A DNA stretch of 64,000 nt from Collinsella sp. An268 (GTDB lineage: Bacteria; Actinomycetota; Coriobacteriia; Coriobacteriales; Coriobacteriaceae). Each line of letters opens with the position of its first letter. The stretch's first letter is position 1. The stretch covers positions 310,001 to 374,000 of the forward strand of contig NZ_NFJH01000001.1 of the NCBI RefSeq assembly GCF_002159765.1, given 5' to 3'. The position numbers and the translations under genes are program-made. This document shows, piece by piece, positions 47,677-61,566 of this stretch. The notes under the pieces are model-generated. The model did no database searches. It saw nothing but the letters and a program-made list of their open reading frames with translations, and was not told the origin of the DNA.

Positions 47677-49161
47677 TTAGAACTTGCGACCCTTCATCTG
47701 CTGCTCCATGGCGCGCAGCATGTCCATGTCGGAGCCGCCGGCGCCCGCACCGCCAAAGGGGTTGCCGCCGCCCATGAGGTTGGCCATGTTGGGCATGCCC
47801 GCCATGCCGGGGACGCGCATCTTCTTGCCCTTCTTACCCTTCTTGCCCTTTTTGCCGCCCTGCATCTGCTGGGTCATGGCGCGCATCTTGCCCATCATCT
47901 TGTTCATCTCGCCCCACTGCTTCATGAGGTTGTTGACGTCGGTGGGCGTGGTGCCGGAACCGCGGGCGATGCGCGCGCGGCGCTGGCCGTTGATGCACTT
48001 GGGGTTCAGGCGCTCCTCGCGCGTCATGGACTGGATCATGGCCTCGTTCTTGTCGAGGATGGTCTCGTCGAGGTTGCCGCCCATCTGGTTGAGCGCACGC
48101 TGGCCGCCGGGGAGCATGCCGAGAATGCCCTTCATACCGCCCATCTTACGGACGGCGCGCATCTGCTCGAGCATGTCGTCCATCGTGAGGCCCTCGCGAA
48201 GCATGCGCTCGGCGGACTCCATCTGCTCGGCCGTGGCGGCTTCCTGGGCCTTCTCGATGATGCCGATGACATCGCCCATACCGAGGATGCGCTTGGCCAT
48301 GCGCTCAGGGTTGAAGACCTCGAGCGATTCGGGTTTCTCGCCCATCGACACGTACTTGATGGGCTTGCCCGTCACGGCGCGGACCGAGAGGGCGCCGCCG
48401 CCGCGGGCGTCGCCGTCGAGCTTGGAGATGATGACGCCGTCGAAGTCGGTGCGCTCGGCAAACGTCGAGACGACGTTCACGATGTCCTGACCGGTCATGG
48501 CATCCACGACCATGAGCACCTGATCGGGCTTGACTGCGCGCTTGATGTCGACGGCCTCCTGCATCATCTGCTCGTCGATCTGCAGGCGTCCGGCGGTGTC
48601 GACGATGACCACGTCGCGCAGCTTGTCGACGGCCTCGCGAATAGCGCCCTGGGCGATCTCGACCGGGTGCTCGCCGTCACCGCGGAAGACCGGCACCCCG
48701 ATCTCGCCGCCGAGCGTGGCGAGCTGGTCGGCCGCCGCGGGGCGATAGACGTCGCACGCCGCCAGAAGTGGGCTTCTCCCCTGCTTCTTGAGGAGGTAGG
48801 CAAGCTTCACAGCGGCGGTGGTCTTACCGGAGCCCTGCAAGCCCACGAGCATGATGACGTTGGGGATGCGGCTCGAGAGCACGAGCTTGCTCTCGGTGGA
48901 GCCCAAAAGCTCGATGAGCTCGTCGAGCACGATCTTGACGACGTTCTGGGCGGGCGTGAGCGACTCGAGCACCTCGGCGGTCATGCAGCGCTCACGGGTC
49001 TTGGCGACGAAGTCCTTCACGACCTTGAAGTTAACGTCCGCCTCGAGCAGCGCCATGCGGATATCGCGCATCGCGCTCGTGATGTCCGCCTCGGTGAGCT
49101 TGCCCTTGCCGCGGAGGCGGTCGAACGTGTCGTTCAGGCGGTCGGACAGAGAGTTAAACAT
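47677..49161 (-). CDS. ffh: Signal recognition particle protein Ffh
   Basis: SRP54 GTPase that binds signal sequences and 4.5S RNA. 494 aa. The N domain is FNSLSDRLNDTFDRLRGKGK. The G domain has GLQGSGKTTAAVKLA (about residue 107), VDTAGRLQIDEQMM and SKLDGDARGGGAL. The Met-rich M domain has GMLPGGQRALNQMGG, and a Lys/Gly run (KKGKKGKKGKK) and a Met-rich tail end it. It would normally stand next to ftsY-smc, but an accessory island separates them here. Confidence 0.97.
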   Translation of the reverse strand: MFNSLSDRLNDTFDRLRGKGKLTEADITSAMRDIRMALLEADVNFKVVKDFVAKTRERCMTAEVLESLTPAQNVVKIVLDELIELLGSTESKLVLSSRIPNVIMLVGLQGSGKTTAAVKLAYLLKKQGRSPLLAACDVYRPAAADQLATLGGEIGVPVFRGDGEHPVEIAQGAIREAVDKLRDVVIVDTAGRLQIDEQMMQEAVDIKRAVKPDQVLMVVDAMTGQDIVNVVSTFAERTDFDGVIISKLDGDARGGGALSVRAVTGKPIKYVSMGEKPESLEVFNPERMAKRILGMGDVIGIIEKAQEAATAEQMESAERMLREGLTMDDMLEQMRAVRKMGGMKGILGMLPGGQRALNQMGGNLDETILDKNEAMIQSMTREERLNPKCINGQRRARIARGSGTTPTDVNNLMKQWGEMNKMMGKMRAMTQQMQGGKKGKKGKKGKKMRVPGMAGMPNMANLMGGGNPFGGAGAGGSDMDMLRAMEQQMKGRKF

Positions 49162-49192
49162 GAGAGGCTCCTATCATGGCGCACTTCCAAGA

Positions 49193-49290
49193 GCGAGTGG
49201 TCGTATGGTACAACGCTCGGACTGTCCTCGAAGACCGTAGCGCAGCTACGGCCTCCTGCGGAGCTCGCAACGAACCATACGACCACTCGC
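49193..49290. repeat. 98-bp palindrome upstream of ffh
   Basis: Perfect 17-bp arms (GCGAGTGGTCGTATGGT at 49193-49209 and its complement at 49274-49290) enclose smaller stems, including CCGTAGC/GCTACGG. It marks the ffh side of the island. A promoter for ffh in the rest of the gap (49291-49453) is not clear; TATACT at about 49314 is a -10 candidate. Confidence 0.8.
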
Positions 49291-49334
49291 CCGTGCGGCT
49301 TGCATACTAGCTACAGTATAGAAGAACCTAAGGG

Positions 49335-49361
49335 TTGCCGCCCAGCGGAGCTGGACGGCAA
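49335..49361. terminator. Hairpin after the island operon
   Basis: TTGCCGCCCAGC with GCTGGACGGCAA (one mismatch, 3-base loop), about 93 bases past the NERD-helicase stop. No T-run follows, so termination is only likely. Confidence 0.5.
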
Positions 49362-49453
49362 ATCGGACAACCTGACAGACCGAATCAATCAGACTCTTAA
49401 CAGCAGGCTACAAGTTTTGCATTCATTCCCTTCGGCATTGGCTCTGAAGCCCC

Positions 49454-51232
49454 CTACTTAACTCCAGGGGTTACGTTAATCGCATACAGCCGTTTAGCAA
49501 GTTTCGAAACAGGCTTGTTCGGAGTTTTGGAACCACACGAGGGGTCAATTAACCGCAGCGTTTGGGCACACTCTAGGCTAGACATGTCGCACACTATTCT
49601 CAGCTCATGCTTCGCTCTCGACGCACCCGTATAGAACATGAGCCCAGGAAATGGGTCGTAGACACTTGAAGGTTCTTCCCACATAGATCGGTCGACGTCT
49701 ATGAGAATAACCGCTTCAGCCTCAAGTCCTTTGAACTTCCTGCAGGTAGTCACTGGGACAGAGGTCTTCTTCCACCTTTCCGCTATGGCGGGAAACCTCA
49801 TCCCACGTGAACCGCTAACTAGAAACTGGGCCTTTAGAGCACTCTGCGCCAAGGTCTTGCAGGTTAATATGACGATGTCGTTGATTCCAACCTCATTGAG
49901 AGCCTTGATTTGCTCGTCAATAAACTTTGCCTGGGCGTCAGAGCCGTCAGACGCGAACAACAGCGGTGGACTGCTAAGCGACTGCATGACCAGTTGGACA
50001 TCATCCTTCCCACCGATTGCCCGGCTCGAACAAATTGCTATGTCCTTTGTATTCCTGCAATTTACATAGAGTGTCAACTTGCAGTCCGCATCGTTGAAAA
50101 GCGTTGGGAGTTTGGAGCCCTGAATCAATTGGTTCTTATCGTAGAAGACGTAGAAGGAGCCGTCCCTCGCGCGCATAATATCCTCGAGAATGTCGACGAC
50201 CATGGCGTTGTCTATTGCTTCGATCCCAAAATCCTGGCCTTCGTCTATAACCACGCTAGCGTAGGGAAACCCTTCCCCTCCATCCTCTTGGCTCATAAGC
50301 CAGCTGGCTAAGCCGTCATAATCCGGCACGGGAGAATTGCAGACTTTACACGCAAGGCCGGCAATTGTATAGACATCCACGCCGTCCACCCCAGAGAGGC
50401 GCGCCGCCACGTCGTCTTTAAGCAGTGCGTTATAGCAAAGGTAGAGCACGCGACGACCTCGCGTAACTTCGTCTTTAGCGTGCTCAATCGCTATGAGAGT
50501 TTTCCCTGTCCCCGCGGCGCCCGCTATAACCGCTACCTTTTGGTCGCGAATAAACGATAGGACGCGCGCCTGAGACTCCAAAAGACGAGAAAACCTATAG
50601 TCTGCAAGGTCGTAACGGTATCTCTTGGTTGGGACGACTGAAAACTCGGGACAAATCACCCTCTCGAGAATCCTTCTAACGCCGGCAGCGGTCAGAGGCG
50701 TACTTTCGGGGCGATACGCCATAGCCATTATGGATTTGATCTTAGGCTCGGGATTCCCGAGGTCGTCAAAGAACAGTGTGGTGTCAAAGGAAGCCTCTGG
50801 AGGGAAATTGACTTCCCGCATTTGATGTGCCTTGATTGAAGGAAACCATACGGCACGCATGAATCCGCAGCGGCGACACTCCTCACGAAGCCCCACCTCG
50901 GTGAACCGATCCCGGATATGGAACTTCATGGCATTCGCCTGCGAGTAAGGGCCGCCGTGTTTCATAGGTAAGCCGTTACCATAAAACCACTCGCCGTCAT
51001 GGTAAGACACCTGGCCTGCTTTCGCCTCAATGCATAAAACACCTAGCGAGGGGTGAAACACGACGAAGTCGGCTTCGCTTTCGCGCCACACGCCCTCCTT
51101 GCTGCTCGTCAAATCATACGAATGGACGACGTAGAACTCGTCCGACATGCGCTCTAGTGAAGCGTAGATGTCTCCTTCATGACTCGCCGGATTGAAGGCG
51201 CGCGGTCCGGAACCCGGAATCATTATTGCCAT
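49454..51232 (-). CDS. NERD nuclease-like / superfamily 1 (UvrD-like) helicase fusion
   Basis: 592 aa. The N-terminal NERD domain (about residues 17-125) has the PD-(D/E)XK-like pattern: EGD near 19, ESEADFVVF with its Asp, and LCIEAKAG (ExK). The helicase part has Walker A GAAGTGKTLIA (about 238), motif II VVIDEGQDF, motif III/IV DKNQLIQG and VNCRNTKDIA, and motif VI TGASRAKHELRI. Nuclease and helicase appear catalytically complete. ATG 51232 overlaps the upstream helicase stop by 10 bases, with AAAGGTGG as ribosome-binding site. It is third in the island operon. AT-rich codons (ATA, AGA) contrast with neighbours. A related pairing of NERD and UvrD-type helicase is found in defence contexts. 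Confidence 0.85.
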   Translation of the reverse strand: MAIMIPGSGPRAFNPASHEGDIYASLERMSDEFYVVHSYDLTSSKEGVWRESEADFVVFHPSLGVLCIEAKAGQVSYHDGEWFYGNGLPMKHGGPYSQANAMKFHIRDRFTEVGLREECRRCGFMRAVWFPSIKAHQMREVNFPPEASFDTTLFFDDLGNPEPKIKSIMAMAYRPESTPLTAAGVRRILERVICPEFSVVPTKRYRYDLADYRFSRLLESQARVLSFIRDQKVAVIAGAAGTGKTLIAIEHAKDEVTRGRRVLYLCYNALLKDDVAARLSGVDGVDVYTIAGLACKVCNSPVPDYDGLASWLMSQEDGGEGFPYASVVIDEGQDFGIEAIDNAMVVDILEDIMRARDGSFYVFYDKNQLIQGSKLPTLFNDADCKLTLYVNCRNTKDIAICSSRAIGGKDDVQLVMQSLSSPPLLFASDGSDAQAKFIDEQIKALNEVGINDIVILTCKTLAQSALKAQFLVSGSRGMRFPAIAERWKKTSVPVTTCRKFKGLEAEAVILIDVDRSMWEEPSSVYDPFPGLMFYTGASRAKHELRIVCDMSSLECAQTLRLIDPSCGSKTPNKPVSKLAKRLYAINVTPGVK

Positions 51233-54200
51233 AGGCCACCTTTCAACGCCTTGACAACCTCTGCAGGATCGTCAACAGCAGCTTGGAAGACCCTCCAGCC
51301 TTTCACGCCCTCTTCCATGTTGCCAAACGACTCGCGAAACTCCTCCATACTCTGACCGTTCATAACGGCCACATGCTCGTCCCTCCAAACGAGTAGGGCA
51401 TCTGCCTCGTTGCCGCACACGTCATAAAACGTGACGTCTGCATAGGGAGAGGAACAGTTCAGAGAACCTGCGAGTGCATTGAGATGGTCGAAGAACTCCC
51501 TCTCACTAGAATCGACGCAGCGATTCATGGCAAAAGAAAACGCCTCGGTACAGCCCGCAGCGCCGAATGAGGGGCCGTTGAATGCCGGCGTGAGCTCAAG
51601 GCATCCTTCAACCTTTCCGTTGTCACATACGTCTTCTTCAGACAAACTCTGAACCGATGCAGACTCTCCTCCCTCCCCTTCTTTGCCTGTGGAGTCCCCG
51701 AGGAAGACCGAGAGGATATCCCGCGCCGCTCCTCTGGATATCACATGTTGGCGACCCTGGTTGAAGTAATTAGCTATACAGTTATAACAGCAGGTCTCTT
51801 CACCACAGTCACAGGTTGAAACTATTTCGAATGCCTCCCGAAGTAGATCTTCGACCATATTGCCAAGCTGCTGTGCGTGACCAGCACCACCTGGGACGTT
51901 GTCATAGAGCAAGACGGACTCTAGGCCGACGAAGTTGACGAAATGGGTAGCACCTATCTCGCTACCAGGTACCTCGAGAAGCCGCAAAGCCGCAGCATGC
52001 AGAGCCCACATGGTTGACTCCCACGCCTCGGGTGCAAACCGATCAGGCGAAGACTCTGGATGAAACGCAAGCTCAAGGATGTCGCTTGTAAACGGTGCAG
52101 CGAGTGCGTTAACGTGGAAAACATGAGGCTCATTGGCCGAAGACTTGCAGTATTTCCAATGTTGGATTTCATCCTGGCTGTCCCCAGCCGCGCCGCACCT
52201 GCTACAAATCCAAAAACCTGCACCTCTATTCTCGTTGATAGCGTAAAGTTGCGCGTTAGACGCCTGCCTCGTCTTTATAAGACCTCCAGGAAGCCTGATC
52301 TCCCTGCCATGGTCTTCTTCAGGCCACTTCTGCGCAAATTGAATCATCGAGTAACCACGGGCTCGTGGTTTGCGCAATCCAATCTGCCGGTTCTTTTGGA
52401 GCTTGCCTTCGAACCCGTATTCCGGGACAATCAGCCTTTTCTTCAGTGATACTTTTTTGTGACACACTGGACATTCTTGCATCTCGTCAACATTGTCTAT
52501 AGGAGGAAGAAAAGTGCCACAGTGCTCGCAGGTGCCATAACGCCTCTGCTCGAGGTCTCTTCCAAAGAGCCGTTTAATGCCGCGCGAACGCCACAACTTC
52601 TTGTCAACAACGATCTCAGATCCAGGCGCATACTCCGTTATGGCCTGTCTAAGGCCACGTTGAAGCCTATAGCCTTCTCTGTCATCCTTAGAAAGGTCCG
52701 CGAGCTCAAGTTCGACCAAATCTGTTGGGAAGCCGTACTTTGGCAGCACCCCCGTGCTCGCAAGCACGTCTATGGTGTGCTCTCTCTGCAGGCGTCCAAT
52801 TTGCCCTTGAAGACGCTGCTTAACATATGCGTCCTCAGTCGACTTCTCTCTCGTTGCCAGAGACTCGTAATCAGCATGCTTGAGGCCGTGCGTGCGCACG
52901 AGTCTACCCATATGGCCGCCAAGCTTGTCACCCGGAGCGACAAGCAAGTCAGTCCATTTCCAATCCTCGCAACCCAAATCCTTCGCCAGTCGCGAATCAG
53001 CAGAGAATATCCGATCAATCTGCTTCTTCAACCGCGCGGGGCGACTATTGAGGTACGAGCGGAGCACCTCGAGCCCCATTGGCTCTGCATCCGCCACCGC
53101 CAAAAAGTCGTTGTATTTCTTCGCGTAGCCACGCTCCTCAGATTCGGGTAGTTGGAAGAAACATGAGAGCGCCGTAGCGAAAAGGTGCCTACGAGCAATA
53201 AGGGAATTGTCAAGATAGCAGGTCGGTGGCTTCGTCGCTCCCCCGATCATTTTCCTCGGGCTTCTAAAGAACGCGACGTCATGTGGCCTCAGCTTCGCAA
53301 ACGTAATAGCGAAACCAGGTTTCCCTGCTCGCCTGCCAACTCGTCCGGCACGCTGGGTATAATTTGCGGTCGAGGGAGGGACGTTGCGCATAAAAATGGC
53401 ACGCAAGTCGCCTACGTCGACACCTAGCTCAAACGTGGTGGTACAAGACAAAATGTTGACTTTTCCATCAAGGAACTCCTGCTGTACATTCCTTGCCGCC
53501 TCAGCAGACAACTGGGCCGTATGTTCCTTTATGGTAATGGGTAGAGGTTCCTCTAGATAGCGTTCCTTGTAGTACTCATCTTTTTCTCTTACCTCCCAGT
53601 ATGTCACAGGTCGGGTGCTGCCCTTGCAACCCCGCGTCATACAAACACCATGGGTGTCTATGTGGGTCATACACCCACATGTGTCACAGAGATATAGAGT
53701 GTCGTCAGGATCGTGGGCATACAGTGTCCAGAGATCCTTATTCAGCTGATAAACTTTCTTCCCCTGCAAGTTCTCTAGACCCTCAACCCCGATGCGCAGT
53801 TTGGAAAGATTCTTTAGATAAAGACAGGTGAAGTTCCCCAATGCTTGCAGAATCGCCAAAGAATCAGGTCGCTCCAGATTAACGCCATGAATCCGCTGGG
53901 CATAAGATCGTATAAATCTGCTCCTGCCATTCTCAGTGCCGATAGCATTTCCAACAAATGAGTAGCGGTTGTCCTCCTCCTTCAAACTCATAGTAGAGTC
54001 GAAATAGAAATAGGTCGGCTGCCTAGGATTATGCCTATCTCCCTTATCAACCAACTTGGATTGCTTGATTGAGCCCCGAGCCCTTAAGCTGTCAAGACAA
54101 TAGGCGAAGAAGACCTTGAAGTCCTCAAGTGTAAGCCATGAGAACTCAGCCTCTCCAAGGTTTTTGTCAATGCATTTCTGCATTGCCAGAAAGACTCTCT

Positions 54201-56550
54201 TGTCTTCAAGTCCCTTCAAGCAGTCCGTCGGATAGATGCGAACGGCTCCGAGTCCATCGAGGCTGTTACGCGAATCTATCGCACTGAGCTCGTCAAGAAC
54301 CCACGCCTCGGCCTTGCTCCTGCCTACGTTCAGCCCCTCGTACCGCTTCGGGGCCTCATTGCAAAGCCATGTAATCACCTCTGAGGGCTTTACGCCTTCC
54401 CCGTCGTCCAGCTCTTTTACCGCCTCTTGAATGAGTTGTCGACGGGTTATGTTCGTATATGTGCGCTCCATAGCCGGGGCAAAGTACGCCGCATCCTGCC
54501 GCCTGTCCGAGAAGCAGATTATATTGCCCGCGTGAGGGGCGTCATGGTCTAAAAACCCGGAGAAGAGATCGTCCGGATCCTCCTCGGCTTTAGTGTCAAA
54601 AGCGGGCACGTCCCGTACAAGGTCATAGCAAACTACGCTGCCGGCTGCCTCAGGGGAAACGCGCATGGGTTGGATGGCGTTTTTGCGTGTATAACCACAA
54701 TGTTTGCAAGAAGCATTCTCTTCGGTTGACTCACTTTTTGCTATGGGCACACGGTCAACAGGCTCATGGGCGTAAAGGTGTCGGCCACCTTCGTTGCTTG
54801 TATGGAGCGACCCGCATATAGGGCAGAGCCAAATCACGTCAGCTTCGTTCTCGTCCTTCTGCTCGCCTTGGTTAAGGAGGCGGTAGTAGCTATGCGGCAA
54901 GAATTCTTCGTCGGCGTCAGTTCCCTCATGCCTCGGGGAGAGCCAGGGCACGCCGGTGGCCTCGTCCATGGCCTCTGTTCCCAAAATATATGCTTGTCCG
55001 CAATGCCGGCAGACAGAAACCTCATAGACGGGTATGCTCTCCCCGTCTTCACGTTTGACCTGAAGCCGCTTCTCAGAAATAAGCTTTCGCGTCGAGAGGT
55101 TTATGAAAATCCCCTCCGGAGCGCGTAAAAAGGAATGATATCTACAGGACAGTACCGGAACGTCCTCGCTTCGTTGGGCAGTCGACAGCACTTCCACCAT
55201 TGACGAAAGGACCTTCACGCCTTCTGGAGTCCCCTCAAGACCGTCAATTCCAATAGAACTCATTTCACTCAACGAGGTAAGGTCAAGGAGGCTCTTGTCC
55301 GTTTCACGGATTAATGACTGAGCAGAGGCCTCCCCGAGCAGAATGGATCCCAACCCGAGCAGCGGCGTCTCGGCCTCATCAAGTCTTTTCATTATATGAG
55401 ACGGGATATGAGGTTCCAGGATCCTGCGCAAACCTTCTGTACAGTCGTTTTCGTTGCCGTCGAGTACGTCGAGAAGCTCGTTCCAGAGAGGCAGCGGTAA
55501 AGAGCCCCACGGCGTTTCGTCCAAGCTGTCCACGGGATCGTCTTTGACGCTTGTAACAACGTCAAGGTCATGCGTGTCGCATGAAAACGGTTCGCCAAAC
55601 AAGTCTTGCGCAAACTTAGCAACCCGAGGTAGGTCTTCTTCCGTACCGATCGTCGCCGACGTCATATAACAATGAAGCTTAAGCTCCGCACCAGAATCGA
55701 CCGCAACACGTGCCTTAAGACGACGAATAAGGTAAGCAACCTCGGTACCTAGAGCTCCCGTATAGACATGGGCCTCGTCAATCGCTATATGCCTCCACCT
55801 CGCACCGAAGACGCTTCCGAATAGGCTTGCGTCTTCTGGGCGCAGAAGCAGGTATTCGAGCATGGAGTAGTTTGTAAGGAGTATATTCGGCGGGTTTTTT
55901 CGAATCTCCTCGCGGGAGAGCAGCTCGTTGGGCAGCCGTTCTTGATTTGACGCGCTTAATTTCCATTTCGAGACGGCTTTCTTTTCTGTCTCTTCCGTCT
56001 CACCGGTATAGCGGCCAAAAGTGATCGGAGTGCCTTTTAGAAGCTCTCTTAAACGCTTGAGTTGGTCGTTTGCCAGCGCGTTCATGGGGTAGAGCAAAAT
56101 GGCGCGGACTCCGGGGCTAGCGCCCTCGCTTTCGAACTCGGAAAGAATGTCATTGATTATAGGTAGGAGAAAGCATTCGGTTTTACCACTACCCGTTCCC
56201 GTCACGACAGCGTAATTCCTATCCCTGGCAGCTTTGCGAATAGCCTGTACCTGATGGACATACAGGGGACGGTCTGGGTTGAAAAGCTCCGGATCGCCTC
56301 CTGCTAGGGTAAGCATGCTATTGCAGAACGTACCCTCCTCCACCAGTTGCCGAACCGTTTTGTCCTTTCGGTATGGAGGGGCAGCTTCTAGGAAAGGCCC
56401 TTTTGCAAGGAAGCCGTCACCTCCAAGAATATCGACAAGCTGCTTCTGTAAGTCGTTGTCGGCAAAATGTATGGTCGTCGCAAGGTACTCTTTGTACGAG
56501 TTGAACACTTTTTTGGACGTGGCAATTGGGTTAAACGCAGCCTCGGACAC
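51223..56550 (-). CDS. Large DEAH helicase with C-terminal DUF1998 (DruE-like)
   Basis: 1775 aa. Superfamily 2 core: Q-motif-like YVHQVQAI (97-104), motif I TGTGSGKT (117-124), YPMNALANDQ (Ia), LTNYSMLEYLL, motif II DEAH (258-261), motif III TSATIGT and motif VI QRAGRVGRRAG (about 1070). Cysteine pairs are scattered through the inserts (CRHCG, CPICG, CKHCG, CEHCG with CPVCHK, CSRCGA). The DUF1998 signature CDCGEETCCYNC...YFNQGRQH lies at about 1580-1610. About 165 further residues follow. Size and order fit DruE of type III Druantia; a DISARM or BREX role is less likely because no methylase is present. Start GTG 56550. Confidence 0.85.
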   Translation of the reverse strand: MSEAAFNPIATSKKVFNSYKEYLATTIHFADNDLQKQLVDILGGDGFLAKGPFLEAAPPYRKDKTVRQLVEEGTFCNSMLTLAGGDPELFNPDRPLYVHQVQAIRKAARDRNYAVVTGTGSGKTECFLLPIINDILSEFESEGASPGVRAILLYPMNALANDQLKRLRELLKGTPITFGRYTGETEETEKKAVSKWKLSASNQERLPNELLSREEIRKNPPNILLTNYSMLEYLLLRPEDASLFGSVFGARWRHIAIDEAHVYTGALGTEVAYLIRRLKARVAVDSGAELKLHCYMTSATIGTEEDLPRVAKFAQDLFGEPFSCDTHDLDVVTSVKDDPVDSLDETPWGSLPLPLWNELLDVLDGNENDCTEGLRRILEPHIPSHIMKRLDEAETPLLGLGSILLGEASAQSLIRETDKSLLDLTSLSEMSSIGIDGLEGTPEGVKVLSSMVEVLSTAQRSEDVPVLSCRYHSFLRAPEGIFINLSTRKLISEKRLQVKREDGESIPVYEVSVCRHCGQAYILGTEAMDEATGVPWLSPRHEGTDADEEFLPHSYYRLLNQGEQKDENEADVIWLCPICGSLHTSNEGGRHLYAHEPVDRVPIAKSESTEENASCKHCGYTRKNAIQPMRVSPEAAGSVVCYDLVRDVPAFDTKAEEDPDDLFSGFLDHDAPHAGNIICFSDRRQDAAYFAPAMERTYTNITRRQLIQEAVKELDDGEGVKPSEVITWLCNEAPKRYEGLNVGRSKAEAWVLDELSAIDSRNSLDGLGAVRIYPTDCLKGLEDKRVFLAMQKCIDKNLGEAEFSWLTLEDFKVFFAYCLDSLRARGSIKQSKLVDKGDRHNPRQPTYFYFDSTMSLKEEDNRYSFVGNAIGTENGRSRFIRSYAQRIHGVNLERPDSLAILQALGNFTCLYLKNLSKLRIGVEGLENLQGKKVYQLNKDLWTLYAHDPDDTLYLCDTCGCMTHIDTHGVCMTRGCKGSTRPVTYWEVREKDEYYKERYLEEPLPITIKEHTAQLSAEAARNVQQEFLDGKVNILSCTTTFELGVDVGDLRAIFMRNVPPSTANYTQRAGRVGRRAGKPGFAITFAKLRPHDVAFFRSPRKMIGGATKPPTCYLDNSLIARRHLFATALSCFFQLPESEERGYAKKYNDFLAVADAEPMGLEVLRSYLNSRPARLKKQIDRIFSADSRLAKDLGCEDWKWTDLLVAPGDKLGGHMGRLVRTHGLKHADYESLATREKSTEDAYVKQRLQGQIGRLQREHTIDVLASTGVLPKYGFPTDLVELELADLSKDDREGYRLQRGLRQAITEYAPGSEIVVDKKLWRSRGIKRLFGRDLEQRRYGTCEHCGTFLPPIDNVDEMQECPVCHKKVSLKKRLIVPEYGFEGKLQKNRQIGLRKPRARGYSMIQFAQKWPEEDHGREIRLPGGLIKTRQASNAQLYAINENRGAGFWICSRCGAAGDSQDEIQHWKYCKSSANEPHVFHVNALAAPFTSDILELAFHPESSPDRFAPEAWESTMWALHAAALRLLEVPGSEIGATHFVNFVGLESVLLYDNVPGGAGHAQQLGNMVEDLLREAFEIVSTCDCGEETCCYNCIANYFNQGRQHVISRGAARDILSVFLGDSTGKEGEGGESASVQSLSEEDVCDNGKVEGCLELTPAFNGPSFGAAGCTEAFSFAMNRCVDSSEREFFDHLNALAGSLNCSSPYADVTFYDVCGNEADALLVWRDEHVAVMNGQSMEEFRESFGNMEEGVKGWRVFQAAVDDPAEVVKALKGGLWQ

Positions 56551-56556
56551 TTGTCC

Positions 56557-59500
56557 CTACCTTTCCTTCTGTATGGGAATGTCTATAAACTGATCGGTTT
56601 GCTTAAGTCCGAAATCGTCAACCGGATATATGGTCAAAATGTACCTGTCGCGCTGGGCGTACTTGGCAATCTGGGGTTCAACCTCCTTGCGCTGCTCTCC
56701 TTCGTTAAAATGCAGCTCTTTTCTTATAGATTCAGTATATGTATCTCTACGCCGAATCTCCCCATAGAACTCACAAGCTGCCGGGGCGTCGAGTTCGATA
56801 TAGTTTTCCTCGTCGCCGCAAATTGCCCTGACGCTCTTGAAACCAAAACCTTCGTCAACCCTAGCAATGACGACGACATCTGCTTTATTTGGGTAAAACA
56901 CGTCCTCTACGCAGCGTTCACCGTACTCGACACCTAAAGCTATATCCGCAATGTGCAAGTCCTCATAGCTCCGCACAGCAAAACAGGACGGGTCGTGGAA
57001 CAGATTCAAATCGACTCTCGTTTGGTCTACGAGGGGGATCTTCCACCAGACGCTACCGTCTAGGAGTATGTTTACCGAGCGCAAATGACGCCTATCAGTT
57101 GACGTCAAGGTAACCGTGCTTTGACGACCGGCCATGTTCAAAACGTCAGGGTAATACAGCGGTTCCTTACACGTGCTCTGCATAAGGAGTTTCGGAACCT
57201 TTATCTCAATGCCTGCCAGCGACAGCTCACAAGAGATTTCACTAAACGACTGGCCACCGAATTCGAAAACCTTCATAGAGACGCTGTCACGCCCAAGCAG
57301 ACAGGAGAAAACAAGCTTCGCCCCTTTACGAAGCATGACGTTTCCGCGCCCGTTATCCCACCTTGCTTCATCCTCCAAATCCATGAGGACCCGACATTGT
57401 GCCAGAGCTCTAAATGAGTACCTAGCAACAAAGCTTCCCGCGTCATGTCTAACCGAAACAATAATCGGGCTGCTTATGGGAATCACGACGAACCTGTAAC
57501 GCATGACCAACTTGCCATTCGCCCGAAGTCGGGATTCGACTGTCTGGATTCCCCCGTGCATGGTGGAATAGGGGACCTTGCTCAAATCGACAGAAGCGTG
57601 ATTACCGTCCTGAACGGCAAGGTACTCGGAAAGGTCGCGTGTAGAACCGGCGAATGTTCTGGTAATCAGTAATTGGTTGAAAATACCGCTCTGTGCAGAT
57701 TCGAAGATGATTTTTGGAAGGCCGCAAAGACACCCGCCGTTACTGTCCATGGAGTAGACGTCCTCGCCATCCCCAGTAACCCCTATGGCATGATCTTTCT
57801 CTATTGAGACCGCCAGCCCTTCCGACCAGGCGGCAACAACCTCACCGCTTGCGTCTTGGAGCTCAAAGAACGCGCCCGGCCCGACTGTGCATGAATATAA
57901 CGTCGCATGGACGCCTGAAGACAGTTCACAGTCAGCTGTTTGTTCTATGTCGGCTCCCTCGCCAGGAACAAGCTTCAGCCCAGCATCAGGAAGAATAGCC
58001 ATACGTCGTTGACGCGAGACAGAACCACGTTTCTTCTGGGGATACGATCCGTCAGACATTCTGACGAACTCCCAGCAACCTGGGTGAAGTCTCTTTATGC
58101 TTTGAGTTACCTGCGCAATCTGCTTAAACGTTTCATTCCTATCAGCGGAGGAGCCCTTTTCTTGTGGCCGTAGAACCTGCCGTTCCACCAGCATTTCGAC
58201 CTCATAACGCGGTGCAAACTCGACGTCAAGAGCGACGGGCCTAAGGACATAGCCTCCAACTTCTGCCCATACAGGTTCTGAGCGGACTTTTGCCGAGTTA
58301 ACCAAATACGTTACCCGACAACCTCTCAACTGATCAGGAACCTTGCAGCCCTTTATATGAACGACCAGCTTACCAACCGACATGTCAAAAAGGAGTATGG
58401 CTTTGGGAAAAGCGAAAAGCCCTGCTTCATGAGCGCCCTCGGATATGGCACCGTTAACGTGGAGCTGTTTTCTGGTCTGAACGTTCGCGCTCGAGCCTGC
58501 CACCTCGGCTCTCTTCTTGTCACACACGTCAGATAAAGCTGAAAGCGCGTCCTCCGGAAGGCTCTCGTTTGAAATGGCCGTGAACCCTTCTGCCGCGGAA
58601 ACGGTATCGAGTTGGGTTGCCGTATCAACAGCCGAATTGAGCAGTGGCTCGAGTATGGTCGCGGGTACGTTGTCGAAGATCTTGCCCAGAACCTTTCCCA
58701 TTTTTAGCGAAGGTTCCGTTTTCAACATGCTAATGAGGCCCGCTCCCGAGGTAATACGAGATCTGGTGACCAGTGGAAGCACGACGTCTTCCCACAGTTC
58801 ATGCCAAATGCTTTTTGAAAGCCCGCCGTTGATAAGCGCCGAATAGAAATAGCGAAACGATTCGCCCCTCTCCTTAAAGCAGGGCATAGACTTTTTATCG
58901 AGAAGCCGGACATAAGCTCTTTTGAATAAACTCTGACGGTTTCCGTCCTTAATTCCCAACATGGAAAAGAAGTTGTCCCAAAGGTTATCTCCGTCGAAAC
59001 AGGCGTTCACGTTATAGGCTACAAAAACAAGGAAGGCATCTGGAACCACATCTTCAATGAAATTGAGAAGCTCCTTGTAGCTTTGAGCGCTGCTGGTGTT
59101 ACCAGAAATAAGTTTTTTAAAGTCAGTGCTCAAATCGTCAAGATCGATCGGCATGTCTGAAAACGCTTGGAAAGTTAAGTATGTTTGGTATTGCACCGAA
59201 AGGTCTTCAAAGGCACGGCGCGCCTCTTGCTCATAGGTCGCCAACGCTTTTGAAATGTCCTCATTCACAAAAAAGCTTGTATAGGTCTTCCCACGCCGAG
59301 AGCTCGAACGGAGTCTCATGTGCTCCAAAGAGGTGGGTTTATCCTTATGCCTCGCACTCTTTAAGTCGGCGTTTGCCTTGTCGACAATGCGGTGAGGGGT
59401 ACTCTCCTGCCCAATCTCCCTTACCTTGCCGTACGCATCTGCGACCGGCTCCTTCTTCTCCTCTGTATCCTTGAGCAACCGCTTGGCGAATGCTTCCGGA

Positions 59501-59712
59501 TTCTGTTGGTATTGCCTCTCCAAGTCGTCGAGGACGTTCTCCTCGCGCTCGGTCAATTCGCTGATTATTACCTGAGGAGAAAGCATGAAAGCATCGGGGA
59601 GCGTCTTCGCACCCAGATTTATGAGCTTCCTCCGAAAGGTGATATTACCCACCTTCAGCTTGCTAAGGGGTGTAGAATTAAGACGGGCTATGAAATCATC
59701 TGCATCAGCCAA
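56557..59712 (-). CDS. Large defence-island protein (DruH-like candidate)
   Basis: 1051 aa, first gene of the island operon. Residues about 10-70 (STPLSKLKVGNITFRRKLIN, then LGAKTLPD) resemble the HhH fold of the RNA polymerase alpha C-terminal domain. A helical middle (70-420) is followed by a long beta-rich C-terminal half without recognisable motifs. No nuclease, methylase or ATPase signature was found. Start TTG 59712 has GAGGAG at 6 bases; the stop is 6 bases before the helicase. The about 1000-aa partner next to a DruE-like helicase is the layout of type III Druantia, so DruH is a candidate. The identity is an inference from position and size. Confidence 0.7.
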   Translation of the reverse strand: MADADDFIARLNSTPLSKLKVGNITFRRKLINLGAKTLPDAFMLSPQVIISELTEREENVLDDLERQYQQNPEAFAKRLLKDTEEKKEPVADAYGKVREIGQESTPHRIVDKANADLKSARHKDKPTSLEHMRLRSSSRRGKTYTSFFVNEDISKALATYEQEARRAFEDLSVQYQTYLTFQAFSDMPIDLDDLSTDFKKLISGNTSSAQSYKELLNFIEDVVPDAFLVFVAYNVNACFDGDNLWDNFFSMLGIKDGNRQSLFKRAYVRLLDKKSMPCFKERGESFRYFYSALINGGLSKSIWHELWEDVVLPLVTRSRITSGAGLISMLKTEPSLKMGKVLGKIFDNVPATILEPLLNSAVDTATQLDTVSAAEGFTAISNESLPEDALSALSDVCDKKRAEVAGSSANVQTRKQLHVNGAISEGAHEAGLFAFPKAILLFDMSVGKLVVHIKGCKVPDQLRGCRVTYLVNSAKVRSEPVWAEVGGYVLRPVALDVEFAPRYEVEMLVERQVLRPQEKGSSADRNETFKQIAQVTQSIKRLHPGCWEFVRMSDGSYPQKKRGSVSRQRRMAILPDAGLKLVPGEGADIEQTADCELSSGVHATLYSCTVGPGAFFELQDASGEVVAAWSEGLAVSIEKDHAIGVTGDGEDVYSMDSNGGCLCGLPKIIFESAQSGIFNQLLITRTFAGSTRDLSEYLAVQDGNHASVDLSKVPYSTMHGGIQTVESRLRANGKLVMRYRFVVIPISSPIIVSVRHDAGSFVARYSFRALAQCRVLMDLEDEARWDNGRGNVMLRKGAKLVFSCLLGRDSVSMKVFEFGGQSFSEISCELSLAGIEIKVPKLLMQSTCKEPLYYPDVLNMAGRQSTVTLTSTDRRHLRSVNILLDGSVWWKIPLVDQTRVDLNLFHDPSCFAVRSYEDLHIADIALGVEYGERCVEDVFYPNKADVVVIARVDEGFGFKSVRAICGDEENYIELDAPAACEFYGEIRRRDTYTESIRKELHFNEGEQRKEVEPQIAKYAQRDRYILTIYPVDDFGLKQTDQFIDIPIQKER

Positions 59713-59755
59713 CTTAAACTCCTCAAAACCCGTCCAAGCGCATATTCCTAACTAC

Positions 59756-59783
59756 ATTATAAGAACGAAATTCATAGAAACAA
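59756..59783 (-). promoter_or_regulatory. Promoter of the island operon
   Basis: Minus strand TTGTTT (59778-59783), 16 bases, TATAAT (59756-59761), about 45 bases before the TTG start. This is the best sigma-70-like site near the island. Confidence 0.75.
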
Positions 59784-59863
59784 CTAGAACCGACTCTGCC
59801 ATCTGTCTTTCAACCATTAAGAGGGGACGTGGGATCACGTCGTCTTGAAACTAGCCCCAACAC

Positions 59864-60058
59864 TTGCCGCGAGCGAAATATATCCGTGAAGAGCATGTTA
59901 AGTTAGGGCAGTTTACTCCGACCACTTTGTCAACCTCGCAAATTCAAACGATTGCCGGGATACGATGGCGTTGTCGAACGAAGGGAGCAATCATAGCCCC
60001 GGTACCGGTCAAGGAATCTACATTCGATGACATAGACGAGACGTATGGGCGCAGCTAG
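59864..60058 (+). CDS. Small open frame at the antitoxin position
   Basis: 64 aa, unrecognised. The N-terminal half is basic and unremarkable. The C-terminal part TKGAIIAPVPVKESTFDDID vaguely recalls the RGKPVAVIVPV-like tail of Phd/YefM antitoxins. It lies 17 bases before the toxin-like frame. It may be a decayed antitoxin or only chance. Confidence 0.3.
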   Translation: MPRAKYIREEHVKLGQFTPTTLSTSQIQTIAGIRWRCRTKGAIIAPVPVKESTFDDIDETYGRS

Positions 60059-60075
60059 GAACCATTCAAGATTTC

Positions 60076-60408
60076 GTGCGAAGGGCGGCCTATAAAGTCG
60101 TCGTCGCCCAAGCCGCCCACAACGACTACGAGGTCGCGCTCGACTACATAGCGCAAGTGCCCTGCGCTCCGAGCGCAACAGAACGTCTACACACTGAATC
60201 TGTCTCCACGCTTTCAAGTTTGATGCAGAATCCTGCATTCTACCCTGTTCATAGCGGTGCGATCGAAATCTTCCGTCGCACCATGTACTGGCGCAGCGTG
60301 GACTCCTACCGCCTGTTCTATGTCGTCGACAGAGAGCGATCCCCAGTAACGGTCTTCTCGTTTCTGCATAAGAGCCAAGACGCCATGAGAGTTATTCTCA
60401 TTGACTAC
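60076..60408 (+). pseudogene. RelE/ParE-family toxin without its own stop codon
   Basis: About 111 residues of a RelE/ParE fold: YKVVVAQAAHNDYEVALDYI, APSATERLHTESVSTLSSLM, NPAFYPVH, SYRLFYVVDRERSPVTVFSF, HKSQDAMRV. The family normally ends there. Instead the frame stays open to 61848, running antisense through ftsY into smc, so the native 3' end appears lost and the end given is the expected domain end. The start is GTG 60076. Without a credible antitoxin it is probably inactive or a remnant at the island edge. Confidence 0.65.
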
Positions 60409-60651
60409 CGTTCCTCGCGCGAGCCCTTGTGGCGAAACACTTTACTCCGATCCCTTTGTCTCCAATCTGGGATGACAGAATTCTGCGACCACTTCCGATT
60501 TTTTGAGTACGCCAGAGATACCTTATGGGGCGGAACTCTCGACAAACGTGATGAAATACACATAAAACCAGCAGCAGACGCACGGGAACCTGCACTTCGT
60601 CGACAGGGGCGGCGGCGCCGGGGCGCGGGGCGTGCCCGGCCCCCAGCACGG
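60409..60651. other. Spacer between the toxin remnant and ftsY
   Basis: No gene on either strand. The AT-rich island composition gives way to GC-rich DNA near 60590, which marks the probable right border. A GGCGGCGGCGCCGG run can form hairpins just after ftsY. Confidence 0.5.
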
Positions 60652-61566
60652 CTACTCCGCGCCGACGAGCGCGCGGCAGAACTCGTGCGCGTCGAAGGCC
60701 TGCAGGTCCTCCACATGCTCGCCCACGCCGATACGGTAGATGGGGAGCTTGAGGCTCTGCGCGACCGCGAGCGCGATGCCGCCCTTGGCCGTGCCGTCGA
60801 GCTTGGTCATGATGATGCCGTCGAGGCCGAGCGCCTCGTTGAACTCCTTGGCCTGGGTAAGGCCGTTCTGGCCCGTCGCCGCGTCGATGACGAGCACGAC
60901 GAACACGTCCATGGCGCCGGCCCGCATCTGGGCGGCGCGCTTGCGCGTGACGTTGACGACCTTGGCGAGCTCGCGCATGAGCTCGGGGCTCGTGTGGAGG
61001 CGCCCCGCCGTGTCGATGAGGACGAGGTCGGCGCCGGTGCGGTCCGCCTCGTCGAGCACGTCGTAGCAGACGCTCGCCGGGTCGGAGCCGCGGTCGCGCT
61101 TGACCACGGGCACGCCGGCGCGCTCGCCCCAGACGTCGAGCTGCTCGATGGCCGCGGCGCGGAACGTGTCCGCCGACCCGATGACGACGCGCTTGCCGGC
61201 CCCATGCGCGGCGCTCGCGATCTTGCCGACCGTAGTGGTCTTCCCCGCACCGTTGATGCCCACGAAGAGAACGCACGACGGCGTCGTATCAAACGGGTCG
61301 CGCGCCACCGGGACGAAGATCTCCGCCAGGCGGTCGGCGAGCGCGCGCCGCAGCTGGTCGGCGGTCTTCAGGTTCTTGCGTGCCGCGAGGTCGCGCAGGT
61401 CGTCGCTCACCTTGAGCGCGATCTCGGCACCCATGTCGCCCATGACGAGGGTGTCCTCGAGATCCTCCCAGAAGGACTCGTCGACCTCTCCGCCAAAGTA
61501 GAAGATCTCGTTCAGGGCCTCGCGGCTGCGCTCGAGACCCTGCTGGAGTTTCTCAAAAAAGCCCAT
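60652..61566 (-). CDS. ftsY: Signal recognition particle receptor FtsY
   Basis: The membrane-associated SRP receptor GTPase that docks Ffh-ribosome complexes at the translocon. 304 aa, the short form without the acidic A domain. The NG domain has FEKLQQGLERSREALNEIF, G1 GINGAGKTTTVGKIA, ADTFRAAAIEQL, DTAGRLHT, G4 TKLDGTAKGG and GVGEHVEDLQAFDA. It starts 1 base after smc ends, so the two are co-transcribed. ffh, its natural neighbour, is now about 11.5 kb away beyond the island. Confidence 0.97.
   Translation of the reverse strand: MGFFEKLQQGLERSREALNEIFYFGGEVDESFWEDLEDTLVMGDMGAEIALKVSDDLRDLAARKNLKTADQLRRALADRLAEIFVPVARDPFDTTPSCVLFVGINGAGKTTTVGKIASAAHGAGKRVVIGSADTFRAAAIEQLDVWGERAGVPVVKRDRGSDPASVCYDVLDEADRTGADLVLIDTAGRLHTSPELMRELAKVVNVTRKRAAQMRAGAMDVFVVLVIDAATGQNGLTQAKEFNEALGLDGIIMTKLDGTAKGGIALAVAQSLKLPIYRIGVGEHVEDLQAFDAHEFCRALVGAE

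Follow-up and report, generated by a model that had tools for sequence, protein, structure and literature searches.

Druantia type III is built on a two-gene core, in which a fast-evolving protein of ~1100 aa with Ig-like domains (DruH) precedes a YprA-like DEAH/DUF1998 helicase (DruE). The reference DruE proteins of this type that we compared (2038-2115 aa) belong to a group that ends in PLD domains (PMC12458937, PMC13192584), and DruH reportedly evolves faster than DruE and is the likely sensor (PMC13192584). A 'Druantia Type III-like' or III-B branch has also been described, with helicases that mostly lack a nuclease domain (Bell et al. 2025, PMC12458937), and the M. smegmatis DruH-DruE pair (1132 + 1667 aa), whose trigger is a minor tail protein, protects against phage without a recognised nuclease domain (PMC13316683). 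Two further YprA-based systems are TALON, in which the helicase is combined with a NERD nuclease and with TPR-CSD and TBP genes, and ARMADA type II, in which it is joined by a GajB-like helicase of the UvrD family and in which inactivated Vsr tails are frequent (PMC12458937).

The window, by which we mean the whole 64,000-nt stretch of DNA that was analysed, comes from a coriobacterium of the gut and carries three co-directional minus-strand genes at 59712-49454, encoding proteins of 1051, 1775 and 592 aa and separated by gaps of +6 and -10 nt. Open reading frames, starts and stops are exactly those of the original prediction, which had read the locus as a Druantia III-like DruH/DruE pair followed by an additional nuclease-helicase. 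The features of the locus are as follows, in window coordinates.

49162..60650, no strand: genomic island without counterpart in congeners, delimited by blastn and GC content
59756..59783, minus strand: possible promoter TTGTTT-16 nt-TATAAT, read from the sequence
56557..59712, minus strand: P0003, partner protein of 1051 aa; TTG start with GAGGAG 6 nt upstream; HhH-type N-terminus, helical region and tandem Ig-like domains
51223..56550, minus strand: P0002, YprA/DruE-like DEAH helicase of 1775 aa; GTG start; assigned by PADLOC, Pfam and tree
55645..56256, minus strand: DEAD/DEAH helicase domain, P0002 residues 99-302 (Pfam PF00270, 6e-21)
53329..53565, minus strand: Helicase_C domain, P0002 residues 996-1074 (Pfam PF00271, 3e-12)
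51775..52005, minus strand: MZB/DUF1998 zinc-binding domain, P0002 residues 1516-1592 (Pfam PF09369, 1.5e-12; 8.1e-14 in the genome search)
51235..51642, minus strand: C-terminal 'dock', P0002 residues ~1637-1772, degenerate and PD-(D/E)xK-like, co-occurring with the NERD-UvrD gene
49454..51232, minus strand: P0001, NERD-UvrD nuclease-helicase of 592 aa and proposed effector; ATG start; assigned by PADLOC, Pfam and family alignment
50903..51190, minus strand: NERD nuclease domain of P0001, with D55, E69 and K71 unchanged across 13 members of the family
49592..50587, minus strand: UvrD-type helicase domain, P0001 residues ~216-547, with Walker A and B invariant or nearly so

The operon lies within an 11.5-kb island between ftsY (60652-61566) and ffh (47677-49161), two genes that are separated in congeners by <20 bp (G003, G007, G002) or ~30 bp (G006). 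In blastn comparisons with congeners (L187-L189 and L191), homology to the window ends at 49161-49162 and restarts at 60650-60653, and GC content is 48-54% in the island and 60-73% in its flanks. Besides the three operon genes the island contains a ParE-like ORF and nothing else; the methylase, PglZ and PLD genes that the original prediction had declared missing were indeed not found within it, and a search for a flanking repeat pair marking its ends returned none. The ParE-like toxin domain (window 60076-60459, plus strand; 8e-5, just above the Pfam cut-off) sits at the ftsY end, and its ORF is probably truncated, since the reading frame continues into antisense ftsY with no stop. Near the ffh end, just downstream of the operon, there is an inverted repeat of 22 nt (91%) around a 64-nt spacer (window 49188-49295). 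The operon was predicted to be driven by a single good promoter, of which a perfect TATAAT (59761-59756) can be recognised, but the TTGTTT located 16 nt upstream of it is weak; since the two-hexamer scan listed nothing at this site and gave fewer promoter-like sites than shuffled sequences, the promoter is weakly supported. The operon was probably acquired horizontally and probably serves against phage. The congener G006 (matching Candidatus Coprousia avicola) harbors its own trio at another site, with the NERD gene truncated where the contig stops, and its proteins share 51% (helicase), 46% (NERD) and 25% (partner) identity with those of the window; the family member G012 (matching Enorma massiliensis) presents the partner-helicase pair and no NERD gene.

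The domain matches of P0002 agree with the predicted 1775-aa DEAH helicase with DUF1998, and PADLOC assigns it best to DruE1 (8e-179, 595 bits) and then to DruE3 (1.6e-155, 518 bits). To place it, we inferred a tree of 74 helicases from an alignment made with a faster method than full iterative MAFFT, using quick tree searches with SH-aLRT as the only support measure. The resulting tree shows P0002 within a clade of 32 rows (SH-aLRT 99) that excludes three plasmid-borne reference type III DruE proteins as well as the type I and ARMADA-type helicases. P0002 is thus a YprA/DruE-type DEAH + DUF1998 helicase, as the 'DruE-type' label implied, but in a clade separate from the reference type III DruE. 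Its C-terminal tail is also shorter (163 aa versus 382-393 aa in the reference type III DruE), with no profile similarity between the tails, and where reference DruE proteins end in PLD domains, P0002 ends in the dock and is followed by a separate nuclease gene. P0002 itself lacks any recognisable active nuclease domain. The P0002 clade fits the III-like branch of Bell et al., to which we matched it by description and size only: both form a separate branch usually devoid of a nuclease domain, and the proteins of that branch and of the M. smegmatis pair are close in size to the actinobacterial relatives, three further pairs of which measure 1087+1647, 1107+1609 and 1124+1666 aa (the last at L199). 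No NERD-UvrD effector with a dock, by contrast, was found in the main text of the description of that branch. The relatives of the helicase found in a plasmid collection are all distant and include type III DruE proteins. In the Ruminococcus phage NatCom_28274 (L092 5251-12674), a 916-aa gene and a 1558-aa helicase of the P0002 clade lie between the genes for endolysin and exonuclease, so that a phage, too, carries a two-gene form, with neither dock nor NERD gene.

The upstream partner, P0003, returned no match in PADLOC, NCBIfam or the PDB, its Pfam matches are all sub-threshold, and a search of the plasmid collection was negative; compared by hhalign with three reference DruH proteins (STY4851 family), it gave a probability of 0.3%. 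A DruH identity is thereby ruled out at the HMM and profile-profile level, and the 'DruH/DruE pair' of the original prediction was not borne out: the proposed model search recovers DruE for the helicase and no DruH for the partner. 'III-like two-gene core plus effector' remains a fair label for the locus, but its partner is not recognisable as DruH by sequence, and its helicase lies outside the reference DruE clade. Against the upstream partners of related helicases from Bacillota and other phyla, hhalign reports probabilities of 93-96% over 268-524 columns, and P0003 therefore belongs to a partner family of its own, which evolves fast and pairs with these helicases in several phyla. Between congeners, the partner changes faster than the helicase (25% versus 51% identity). 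In some members of the family, the N-terminus bears HhH repeats of the RNA-polymerase-alpha-CTD type (up to 1.7e-35), and the region of P0003 that aligns with it forms a helical unit in the predicted model. Helices prevail in this model (mean pLDDT 79) as far as residue ~415 and give way to a row of beta-sandwiches, for which a fold search returned generic tandem Ig/FnIII-type matches only, the DruH structure 9tud not being among the matches listed. Ig-like domains are present both in the P0003 model and in DruH (PMC13192584; 9tud), although the Ig fold itself is common and at structure level speaks neither for nor against DruH membership. P0003 shares the general character of DruH, which suggests the same role without implying the same family: by analogy, the divergence of P0003, its HhH-type N-terminus and its row of Ig-like domains point to a putative infection-recognising subunit.

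The third gene encodes the predicted 592-aa nuclease-helicase fusion. P0001 matches the PADLOC model RTasNERD-Hel (PDLC03813, filed under DRT) nearly end to end at 8e-46, as well as Pfam UvrD_C_2 (4.7e-8), and relatives of P0001 match Pfam NERD (1.5e-9 and 2.5e-10); the family alignment shows conservation of both the PD-(D/E)xK set D55, E69 and K71 and the Walker motifs, so that its NERD and SF1 helicase motifs are intact. The PADLOC name points to an association with reverse transcriptases, but the island yielded no reverse transcriptase gene. A helicase gene followed by a NERD gene is encountered again in ten or more further genomes, and in nearly every case a large partner gene precedes the two, so that the trio is far beyond chance; its order is seen in Coriobacteriia, Clostridia and Chloroflexota. 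A P0001 homologue lies directly 3' of the helicase at L009/L005, L010, L017, L019, L027, L028, L037, L041, L045, L048, L057, L112 and L113, and 13 loci show the NERD and helicase genes overlapping or abutting. The neighbourhood scan thus identifies the NERD-helicase as a recurrent and real part of the system, and its conserved catalytic motifs are those expected of a partner able to supply the nuclease, as had been proposed. At L113 (2906-8502), the helicase is short of ~260 C-terminal residues, DUF1998 among them, and the NERD gene lacks its N-terminal part, as the result of a deletion or a misassembly that spans the helicase-NERD junction. The two-gene form, with neither NERD gene nor dock, is common, and since the M. 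smegmatis pair of similar size defends without a recognised nuclease domain (PMC13316683), the NERD gene is dispensable for some members. In viral contigs, a search for the NERD family gave five matches, weak and partial. At L114 (231-4433) and L154 (346-1962 and upstream), a NERD-UvrD gene precedes a gene of ~300 aa and a DEAD helicase of ~540 aa, DpdF/PsyrT-like at L114, which is possibly a separate three-gene system.

Helicases that precede a NERD-UvrD gene, and almost no others, bear a C-terminal region of ~130 aa, which we term the dock and whose boundary in P0002 was placed by eye at residue 1612. Within the P0002 clade, 123-205 residues extend past DUF1998 when a NERD gene lies downstream, as opposed to 0-44 in nearly all members without one; exceptions to this are L032, with 134 aa but no NERD gene next to it, and L030 and L055, with a 391-aa tail and a GajB-like gene downstream. 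In the predicted structure, the core of the dock (pLDDT >90) runs through helices, three strands, a helix, a strand and a helix, and its nearest solved structures are mostly PD-(D/E)xK nucleases (AbaSI, PvuRts1I, Can2, Bax1, Vsr), with weak Z-scores of 3.1-5.7. Foldseek returned nothing under 1e-3, Pfam and PDB sequence profiles nothing significant, and the dock alignment contains no invariant acidic residue. The model thus hints at a degenerate nuclease fold. The inactive Vsr tail of type I DruE was discarded as the origin of the dock, because the L060 helicase has a type I tail of ~97 aa and then the dock, and NERD-less type I helicases are dock-less; the ARMADA- and DruE3-type nucleases were discarded for want of profile similarity.

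We then mapped dock and NERD gene on a helicase tree from which the dock region was excluded and rows without downstream sequence were dropped. Both are present in 13 rows, both absent in 49, and the dock stands alone in one, L032, whose MAG encodes a NERD-UvrD gene at another locus, L041. The dock state switches nine times, and in 8-9 of nine independent pairs the NERD gene changes in the same direction, never in the opposite one (p ~0.004), a result not independent of the discovery, since the dock came to attention in the first 80 loci and the tree used for the test was the same. Among loci added later, L111 and L112 have both, L197-L199 neither, L113 is truncated and therefore undecided, and L118 has a NERD gene but no dock. 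The NERD gene led to L111, L112 and L118, the partner to the choice of L197-L199, and L153 is the L057 locus again. Pairwise distances among docks correlate with those among NERD proteins (r 0.685, p 0.0002; partial 0.68) and not with those among the helicase chains that carry the docks (r 0.13, p 0.16). Furthermore, the NERD genes adjoining docks form one clade (SH-aLRT 96), within which the type I and DISARM copies described below are nested, and the dock-less loci L015 and L118 present a divergent NERD-UvrD gene beside the DUF1998 system.

Dock and NERD-UvrD gene occur together in three system types. The type I Druantia locus L060 (DruD1 match at 1.3e-30) has a NERD-UvrD gene, and a dock profile built without L060 matches the C-terminus of its helicase (9e-12) after the usual type I tail. 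The locus of the window resembles it in this cassette and in DruE1 being the best PADLOC model of P0002, but has no DruA-D genes in the island and a helicase of another clade. L111 is a DISARM locus with a DrmM-type methylase, a weak DrmE, DrmA, DrmB and then the NERD-UvrD gene, in which DrmB carries a dock at 654-780 (6e-17) behind its MZB domain at 504-604; no DrmC was present among the retrieved genes. DISARM (DrmA/DrmB/DrmC) likewise combines a DUF1998 subunit with a downstream nuclease, but the window has no DrmA/DrmB split, methylase or DrmC, and no DISARM or ARMADA genes (methylase, BrxHII/DrmD-type helicase, DrmA + DrmB) were found in the island. Each of these two cases is a single locus, and among 11 genomes of the order of the L111 genome there was no second DISARM system with a dock. 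Unlike TALON and ARMADA II, the island is devoid of TPR-CSD, TBP, BrxHII and PglX, with no sign of TPR-CSD or TBP and no room for them, and it joins nuclease and UvrD helicase in one protein. L038_hel2 (L038 15817-24236) and L073 (9998-17925) show a weak dock-like C-terminus (1.4e-4 and 1.1e-3) followed by GajB-like UvrD genes, in agreement with the ARMADA II architecture (PMC12458937); together with L030 and L055, they raise the possibility that the dock principle reaches ARMADA II and similar operons.

Taken together, we consider it reasonably probable that the operon is a Druantia type III-like member of the YprA branch without a nuclease domain, armed by a separate effector through a dock cassette. 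P0003 would recognise infection and license the YprA-type helicase, as by analogy with DruH; the helicase, like others of its family, would load on phage DNA and translocate along it; its C-terminal dock would hold the NERD-UvrD protein, which would unwind the DNA and then cut it through its intact PD-(D/E)xK centre. Dock and NERD-UvrD gene would constitute one cassette that DUF1998-based defence systems have acquired, lost and exchanged. Holding the NERD-UvrD nuclease is the most likely role of the dock.

A canonical type III Druantia (DruH + DruE) beside an unrelated, independently acting NERD-UvrD gene, a mere neighbour in a defence island, would also account for the PADLOC DruE call and for NERD-UvrD genes of this family at loci that yielded no DUF1998 protein (L115, L117 and many of L155-L172). 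DruH is undetected, however, and the NERD gene, besides its overlapping or abutting position in 13 loci, tracks the dock on the tree and in divergence; these correlated changes largely refute such an arrangement, which we regard as very unlikely. Linkage offers a subtler explanation, in that dock and NERD gene may co-vary only because deletion or recombination affects them as a single stretch of DNA, without any functional link. They are adjacent, so that part of their co-inheritance could be linkage, and clean losses leave the helicase ending just past DUF1998. Yet a neutral tail would hardly be retained on the helicase so consistently, L032 keeps its dock without an adjacent NERD gene while having one elsewhere in the MAG, and in no sampled locus does a NERD gene of the dock clade lie beside an intact dock-less DUF1998 protein; linkage without function is therefore also improbable in our estimate.

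A functional link could alternatively mean that the dock is a regulatory or DNA-binding tail, such as a helicase brake relieved by the NERD-UvrD protein, with no recruitment involved. Degenerate nuclease folds can bind DNA, and the support for docking consists of co-occurrence and co-divergence. Against it, the dock is found on three different host proteins, always C-terminal after DUF1998, and the NERD gene is the common factor among them; we consider a regulatory tail unlikely, if somewhat less so than the two preceding explanations. Recruitment of the effector by the dock is the reading we retain.

The association of dock and nuclease with two other known phage-defence systems makes the pair look like an interchangeable 'warhead'. 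The dock of the cassette, its repeated joint gain and loss with the NERD-UvrD gene, and its occurrence on type I Druantia and DISARM are new, with no description in PMC12458937, PMC13192584 or PMC13316683. We see the arguments as evenly balanced on the broader proposal that DUF1998/YprA systems (Druantia III-like, Druantia I, DISARM and perhaps ARMADA II) swap effectors by means of a degenerate-nuclease dock behind DUF1998 that recruits a UvrD-family nuclease-helicase, the cassette moving as a unit. The cassette suggests a way in which phage DNA could be destroyed by some of the many Druantia-type helicases that have no nuclease domain, and the rule that a dock implies a NERD-UvrD protein could be used to annotate such systems. 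A transferable dock, if true, would explain the swapping of effectors among defence systems.
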